Made by a program: the position numbers and the translations under genes. From Bacteroidota bacterium (lineage in GTDB: Bacteria; Bacteroidota; Ignavibacteria; Kapaibacteriales; NICIL-2): DNA of 64,000 bases. A model generated the notes under the pieces. The model did not search any database, had not been told where the DNA came from, and saw nothing but the letters and a program-made list of their open reading frames with translations. Position 1 is the stretch's first letter, and each line of letters starts with the position of its first letter. This document shows, piece after piece, positions 45,769 to 46,761 of the stretch. The stretch spans positions 1 through 64,000 of the forward strand of contig JAIBAE010000011.1 of NCBI GenBank assembly GCA_019695345.1, read 5' to 3'.

Positions 45769-45771
45769 ACT

Positions 45772-45921
45772 CATAGCTACAGAGTAGCGGCATCATCATA
45801 GCTATAGAGTAGCAACATCCTCATAGCTACGGAGTAGCGGCATCTTCATAGCTATAGAGTAGCAACATCCTCATAGCTACGGAGTAGCGGCATCTTCATA
45901 GCTACGGAGTAGCGACATCTT
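45772..45921. repeat. Six 25-bp tandem palindromic units (REP type 1)
   Basis: Six uninterrupted 25-bp units at 45772, 45797, 45822, 45847, 45872 and 45897. Each holds a 13-bp palindrome of the form GCTAnnnnnTAGC, for example GCTACGGAGTAGC, followed by GGCATCTT-like sequence. Units alternate between two versions (GCTACGG... and GCTATAG...). The last unit overlaps the 3' end of the transposase gene, whose stop codon is inside the palindrome. Confidence 0.92.
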
Positions 45922-46381
45922 CATCAATCCATTCAAAAAGATAATGTTCTTCAAATCCGATATTGTAGGAAACCAACAAACTATGATACTCTTCCCTAAA
46001 GGTCTTCAAACGATGATGCTCTTCTTGGTTATTGATATAATGTATCACAACATCAAGTTGAGATTGTGATACAGAAAATGCTCCGAACCCTTCTTGCCAC
46101 TCAAACTTTCCTCTTACAAACGACTTCCCATTAATCCATTTTGATGAATTAGATTTCAAATCACGTATTATATCCGATAAGGCCACTGAAGGAGATATTG
46201 ATAGTAATATATGCACATGGTTAGCAACTCCATTAATAGCATATATTTTTTGTTTTACGCCTGTAGCTGTTCCACAGATGTATTTATACAATTCATCCTT
46301 CCAATCTTTATGAATCAAACTTTGGCGGTTCTTAACCGCGAATACCACATGAATATACAGCTGTGTATAGGTATTTGCCAT
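45902..46381 (-). CDS. IS200-like Y1 transposase (REP-associated)
   Basis: 159 residues from MANTYTQLYI; the frame extends upstream to 46522 only through the palindromic repeats. HUH single-strand endonuclease of the Y1 family: the metal-binding pair is His55-Val-His57 (ANHVHILL) and the probable catalytic Tyr is Tyr115 in VVIHYINNQEEHH. SLIHKDWKDELYKYICGTA is another family stretch. Such enzymes move single-stranded DNA by recognising short hairpins. The gene sits between two arrays of different hairpins, the layout of a REP-associated tyrosine transposase. It is intact and may be active. No TnpB is present. Confidence 0.93.
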   Translation of the reverse strand: MANTYTQLYIHVVFAVKNRQSLIHKDWKDELYKYICGTATGVKQKIYAINGVANHVHILLSISPSVALSDIIRDLKSNSSKWINGKSFVRGKFEWQEGFGAFSVSQSQLDVVIHYINNQEEHHRLKTFREEYHSLLVSYNIGFEEHYLFEWIDEDVATP

Positions 46382-46437
46382 AATAACATCTCCAACATTT
46401 TTCTCGAAACTAAATAAACGATTTCTATAACGATACC

Positions 46438-46751
46438 GCTCCGATGGAGCTTTGATGCAAATGTAACCAACTTCTACTAGGATGTCGCTCCGATGGAGCT
46501 TCGAGGCAACTGATTCTATCAATCTATGATGAGGTGCCTATCATGGATTCTATGAAGATGCCGCTCCGATGGAGCTTCGAGACAAATGTTATTATCTTTC
46601 TATGAGGATGTCGCTCCGATGGAGCTTCGAGGCAACTGATTCTATCAATCTATGATGAGGTGCCTATCATGGATTCTATGAAGATGCCGCTCCGATGGAG
46701 CTTCGAGGCAAATGTTATTATCTTTCTATGAGGATGTCGCTCCAGTGGAGC
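46438..46751. repeat. Six-palindrome array (REP type 2)
   Basis: GCTCCGATGGAGC palindromes start at 46438, 46487, 46563, 46613 and 46689, with a variant GCTCCAGTGGAGC at 46739. Spacings are 49, 76, 50, 76 and 50 bp, so the array is built from a 126-bp doublet (about 46480-46605 and 46606-46731) that is nearly identical in its two copies. Most palindromes are preceded by GATGYC. This array lies upstream of the transposase gene. Confidence 0.92.
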
Positions 46752-46761
46752 TTAACATGAA

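Follow-up and report, generated by a model that had tools for sequence, protein, structure and literature searches.

A subclass 1.2 Y1 transposase gene between two related arrays of REP-like hairpin units: a probable REPtron-like locus in a Bacteroidota bacterium

The window, that is, the whole stretch of 64,000 nucleotides that was analysed, contains a gene for an HUH/Y1 transposase that is located between two sets of short hairpins. The gene lies on the minus strand, and all hairpins read outward from it. The array downstream of the gene will be called A-type, and the array upstream of it C-type. The features of the locus are as follows:

45771..45924, minus strand: A-type array of six 25-nt units, head GATGYC followed by GCTAC-nnn-GTAGC (repeat and pattern analysis)
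45776, 45801 (imperfect), 45826, 45851 (imperfect), 45876 and 45901, minus strand: the 13-nt A-type hairpins
45902..46381, minus strand: tnpA, 159 aa, Y1/HUH single-strand DNA transposase (Pfam, NCBIfam, structure relatives, motif conservation)
45902..45925, minus strand: 3' end of the ORF, overlapping the first A unit, with the stop codon TAG in the 3' arm of the hairpin (sequence)
46425..46753, plus strand: C-type array of six units, head GATGYC (GATACC in the first) followed by GCTCC-nnn-GGAGC (repeat and pattern analysis)
46438, 46487, 46563, 46613, 46689 and 46739, plus strand: the 13-nt C-type hairpins
46472..46597, plus strand: 126-bp two-hairpin tandem duplication, copy 1 (self-comparison; TRF period 126)
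46598..46723, plus strand: 126-bp duplication, copy 2, 98% identical to copy 1 (self-comparison)

The protein, which starts with the ATG at 46381, matches the Pfam family Y1_Tnp (E = 2.1e-29), and its relatives of solved structure, as found by sequence match, are IS200/IS605 transposases, including the TnpA of ISHp608. The original prediction called it a REP-associated transposase. In the strict sense this label does not apply: the protein scores above the cut-off of the NCBIfam IS200 model (75.6 bits, cut-off 55) and below that of REP_Tyr_transpos (25.5 bits, cut-off 80). Its HUH motif reads NHVH, where DH[IV]H is given for subclass 1.2 (the first position is D in 93 and N in 16 of 110 relatives), and its Y motif reads YINNQEEHH. 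Over 110 homologues there is hardly any variation in W, Q, Y and HH, with WQ present in all of them and Y---Q--HH in 108. The last residues of the protein (EDVATP) are encoded by the first A-type repeat unit; the first downstream hairpin overlaps the end of the ORF in several relatives as well, for example L037, L063, L097, L105, L107, L110 and L122. The genome of the window holds one intact tnpA and one frameshifted paralogue with an identity of only 42-46%. This paralogue (L002, G000:C53:24377-24839) is flanked by inward-facing GACTCC-GGAT-GGAGTC hairpins, opposite to the window locus, and the hairpins of L062 are also inward-facing. No viral relatives were found.

For the downstream array, six GCTAC/GTAGC hairpins with a period of 25 bp had been predicted. 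The six units and the period are there (TRF: period 25, 6.2 copies; period 50 at 94%), but a perfect stem is found in four of the units; those at 45801 and 45851 read GCTACTCTATAGC, have lost the loop-closing pair and share the head GATGTT. In the upstream array we recovered the six expected GCTCC/GGAGC hairpins together with their alternating spacing (49, 76, 50, 76, 50), and the alternation results from the 126-bp tandem duplication rather than from independent units.

Along either array, AAGATGCC and GGATGT(C/T) take turns as the head of most units. That the arrays share a head is borne out, as their units match the halves of the dispersed elements described below over 28-29 nt, CTATGARGATGYC-GCTMC-nnn-GKAGC-T. 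The foot of the units is ATGYC / ATRTC; the GT[AG]G foot of GTAG REPs is not present. The stems, on the other hand, do differ as had been stated, but only by a single compensatory base pair of five (A-T in the A type, C-G in the C type), to which a difference in the loops (TCC/TCT versus mostly GAT) is added. Because just one base pair separates the two types, the suggestion that they evolved from one ancestor is plausible. Exact matches to CGCTMCNNNGKAGC (CGCTMC-nnn-GKAGC) occur 10 times in the window, compared to 0.05 expected and to at most 1 match in 100 shuffles. The single hairpins have a weak predicted fold, but one of the expected form, and a search of Rfam gave no matching family for the units.

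Another repeat, GGTGCSGTCATGCGATAGCA, is abundant, dispersed and structured. It occurs at 718 places of the genome (355+363 copies with up to 3 mismatches; control 0), and in the window at the following positions:

1897 (minus), 2089 (plus), 4936 (plus), 6586 (minus), 8330 (minus), 34486 (minus), 34625 (plus): copies of GGTGCSGTCATGCGATAGCA
38013 (plus), 43214 (minus), 43958 (plus), 45707 (minus), 46807 (plus), 57382 (plus): further copies of GGTGCSGTCATGCGATAGCA

The motif TTCTyTCCSGCA lies about 28 nt upstream of this repeat. The S positions of the repeat co-vary, being complementary in 28 of 30 sampled copies, and several window copies are located just after stop codons and read toward the gene. 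No Rfam match was found for this repeat. The idea that the arrays are enclosed by a longer inverted repeat was also considered and rejected: the local alignment is marginal (5 of 500 shuffles were as good) and arises because two copies of the unrelated 718-copy repeat bracket the arrays.

To collect homologous loci, we used whole genomes belonging to the order and class, together with a large genome collection. A hairpin was counted if it had a perfect 5-bp stem starting with GC, a loop of 3-4 nt and a preceding C, and 135 windows shifted by 1.5 kb were used as controls. In this sample, which consists of the closest homologues, including related Flavobacterium species, so that the counts are not fully independent, outward CGC-headed hairpins were present upstream of the gene in 62 of 109 loci, compared to 2 of 135 control windows (Fisher, 3e-25), and downstream in 56 of 109, compared to 1 of 135 (Fisher, 3e-23). 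Head-plus-hairpin units were found at 69 of the 109 loci, and the other 40 are without an outward one under the strict definition. The ratio of outward to other orientations is 140:37 upstream and 106:42 downstream; the hairpins directly adjoin tnpA, and the head consensus of the family is ATRTC immediately before the stem. The idea that the hairpins belong with the transposase therefore holds well beyond the window, and in relatives most hairpins are found at the gene rather than independently of it. Records that bear hairpins are labelled mostly Bacteroidota and Ignavibacteria; single ones are labelled Jettenia (Planctomycetes), Poribacteria, Opitutales and others, and many are metagenome bins.

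Among sites picked by head and frame only, with no pairing required, the middle bases of the stem are complementary in 131 of 139, while permutation gives a mean of 44 and a maximum of 58. Eleven different middle dinucleotides occur among the co-varying stems. Since these bases co-vary, selection seems to act on the hairpin itself. That the head is shared while the stem differs, as the original prediction had it, is supported in so far as conservation lies in the head and the stems change in a compensatory manner. Its proposal that any short hairpin would be recognised is not supported in this wording: the stems keep the frame GC..C, and the more alike the proteins are, the more often they have stem types in common. 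Nor do the two sides of the gene carry a mirror pair of different stems throughout the family. The nearest hairpins on the two sides have the same stem more often than by chance, namely in 28 of 47 loci where permutation predicts 21.8, and the idea that the sides generally carry different stems was rejected on this ground; only convergent pairs follow such a rule.

We searched the genome of the window (4.56 Mb) with a pattern and a covariance model, and found that both hairpin types, not just one of them, are dispersed. Outside the locus there are five 72-nt elements (on C24, C49, C114 and C22, and at C123:74763) and a solo C unit on C47; C123 has, next to its element, an additional A unit and an additional C unit. 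All five elements consist of one C and one A unit, inverted and with the heads outside, in the layout CTATGA-GGATGTC-GCTCC-nnn-GGAGC-T-N16-18-GCTAC-AGA-GTAGC-GGCAT..TCATAG. The linkers measure 16-19 nt in four of the five and the outer inverted ends are conserved, with a mean pairwise identity of 100% in the A hairpin, 79% in the left head, 73% in the C hairpin and 38% in the linker. The covariance model scores the elements with E values from 3e-20 to 4e-17, having been built from the same five copies that it retrieved, so that these values are no independent test of them. As each element pairs a C with an A unit, the two array types correspond to the two ends of one dispersed unit. The small number of copies (five in 4.56 Mb) suggests that amplification is weak or old. 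We were not able to find an empty site for any mini-element. As for the locus itself, G002 has a 63% homologue of its 803-aa neighbour but neither the 548-aa neighbour nor the hairpins, so that this genome offers no usable empty site.

The mini-elements on C22, C24, C49 and C114 (L173-L176) and the one at C123:74763 (L177) lie between or beside inverted copies of a repeat of ~76 nt. This repeat has at least 40 copies, and most of the 30 examined are solo. Three of its four inverted pairs contain a mini-element; the spacer of the fourth (C11:47200, L162) is ~72 nt shorter. Either an insertion preference or a composite unit could be read from this arrangement.

Where neighbouring hairpins of relatives converge, 11 of 12 pairs (9 loci) are heterotypic, whereas neighbours that point in the same direction are mostly same-stem and heterotypic in 46 of 124 (p = 3e-4; p = 0.017 when collapsed per locus). 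Outside the genome of the window dispersal is weak, as most unit matches in 26 other genomes are found at tnpA loci. One of the 30 genomes searched for pairs, Chitinophaga vietnamensis (G177, behind L128), has >100 matches, unlike the other 29; many of them are in long 51-bp tandem arrays of GCCCC-nnn-GGGGC hairpins, mostly same-stem. It is tempting to see hetero-pairing not as an accident of history but as a functional rule by which a mobile mini-element must carry an inverted A and C unit, in a class-1 (IS200-like) REP system that extends over Bacteroidota and other phyla; we consider such a rule rather doubtful. A simple alternative is that a pair of identical units in inverted orientation would fold into a long perfect hairpin, which the cell would not maintain stably; the predicted fold of the mini-element is already one long hairpin (z -5.0 for a consensus-like sequence; two real copies gave -1.8 and -1.4). 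A clover-leaf fold of the whole element with two hairpins, which we also tried, is not favoured over the long hairpin in isolation.

Taken together, the locus is probably REPtron-like: a sedentary subclass 1.2 TnpA flanked by its own cognate REP-like units, with heterotypic REPIN-like mini-elements. A unit consists of a 12-13-nt head (CTATGARGATGYC here, ATRTC family-wide) directly 5' of a hairpin with a 5-bp stem and a 3-nt loop. The upstream C and the downstream A units are two subtypes, one stem pair and the loop apart, and one and the same enzyme probably binds both, using the strand on which the hairpin follows the head. Beside the gene the units have been multiplied by tandem duplication, and the dispersed form is the 72-nt REPIN-like mini-element, made of a C unit, a variable linker of ~17 nt and an inverted A unit. 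By analogy with TnpA_REP and IS200/IS605 enzymes (PMC8266576), the most likely course is that TnpA binds the unit as a single strand in which the hairpin follows the head, reads the head (as a recognition or guide sequence) and the loop, tolerates stem changes that preserve pairing, and nicks nearby, acting in this way on both unit types. The inverted C and A units would then be the mobile or formerly mobile form, and TnpA or an ancestor of it may have made the mini-elements.

Several other explanations have to be weighed against this one. An ordinary IS200/IS605 element, with left and right ends multiplied by slippage into arrays and the whole element still moving, would agree with the score above the NCBIfam IS200 cut-off, with the solved relatives and with hairpins that immediately adjoin the gene in relatives. 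We regard it as improbable: the genome has only one intact copy beside the diverged, frameshifted paralogue, and the end hairpins in the window are on opposite strands, while the ends of canonical IS200/IS605 elements have their hairpins on one strand. Moreover, a published survey finds subclass 1.2 without IS properties (PMC6006769).

Instead of serving the enzyme as substrates, the arrays could also act as regulatory RNA or as terminator hairpins in the tnpA transcript, or else as cis elements restricting its expression. Such a role would fit their position, with one array just upstream of the start and the other running over the stop codon, and also the fold of the single hairpins, which is weak but of the expected form. 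Nevertheless, we give this idea little credence. The hairpins are not followed by a T-run, and for the upstream C units it is the non-coding strand on which the head lies 5' of the hairpin. Conservation of the head extends to both sides of the gene, of which only one is in transcript orientation, and inverted unit pairs are also dispersed away from the gene. A chance neighbourhood, in which the transposase gene inserted into an independent tandem-repeat or REP family, would fit a genome that is rich in other dispersed repeats and in which the 718-copy family even brackets the locus; yet the recurrence of the association over homologous loci, with control windows nearly empty, makes it very improbable.

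If the REPtron-like reading is correct, it has some wider bearing. REP sequences are thought to be derived from domesticated IS200-like transposases, but the assigned TnpA_REP families belong to class 2 or to the small class 3. With a protein of class 1, nearest to the true IS200 transposases, such a REP-like system could be an intermediate state. It would link a transposase group thought to be REP-free to a recognisable repeat family of its own, and provide a lead on function for TnpA_Y1 subclass 1.2, which previously had none. The short two-type substrate set might also be a handle on how such enzymes read head, stem and loop.

How does the locus compare with known systems? Subclass 1.2 is characterised by the signature Y---Q--HH, and the survey table gives "REP: no" for it (PMC6006769, Quentin et al. 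2018). We found no description of REPs for this subclass in the open-access literature that was searched. The survey searched automatically for the GT[AG]G foot (PMC6006769), which is the very foot that the window units are missing. The window protein resembles subclass 1.2 in Y---Q--HH, WQ, a length of ~150 aa, a low number of divergent copies and a Bacteroidota-centred distribution (PMC6006769). Most members sampled here carry a hairpin family with another foot, which departs from the lack of REPs reported in the survey, an observation on the subclass and not a part of its definition.

In E. coli, the REPtron has a TnpA_REP of subclass 2.2 and Y and Z2 REPs in inverted pairs, known as BIME/REPIN (PMC6006769, PMC8266576). 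Similarly, our locus has a sedentary HUH/Y1 gene flanked by head-plus-hairpin units of two related subtypes, inverted pairs of both, and flanking as well as dispersed units (the arrays, five pairs and the solo unit), and the 72-nt elements have the inverted pairing, variable linker and dispersal of REPINs. Unlike the E. coli system, it has YINNQ and the Y---Q--HH signature instead of Y---NP, a foot of ATRTC/GATGYC instead of GTAG, short 5-bp stems without a bulge, and about five dispersed pairs, not hundreds. The catalytic core and the small hairpins with a 5' guide-like sequence are shared with IS200/IS605 elements (IS608, ISDra2), which differ in that the window hairpins are on opposite strands, with several per side, and in that there are no near-identical copies of a whole element in the genome. 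CGTC-tagged REPs are likewise non-GTAG tagged short palindromes, found in some Bacteroidetes and predominantly as head-to-head dimers (PMC3733652, Di Nocera et al. 2013); unlike the window units, they have stems of 8-9 bp that start with AT pairs and no associated transposase gene. The locus fits best into TnpA_Y1 subclass 1.2, as a REPtron-like variant, and is neither a class 2 TnpA_REP nor a typical IS.
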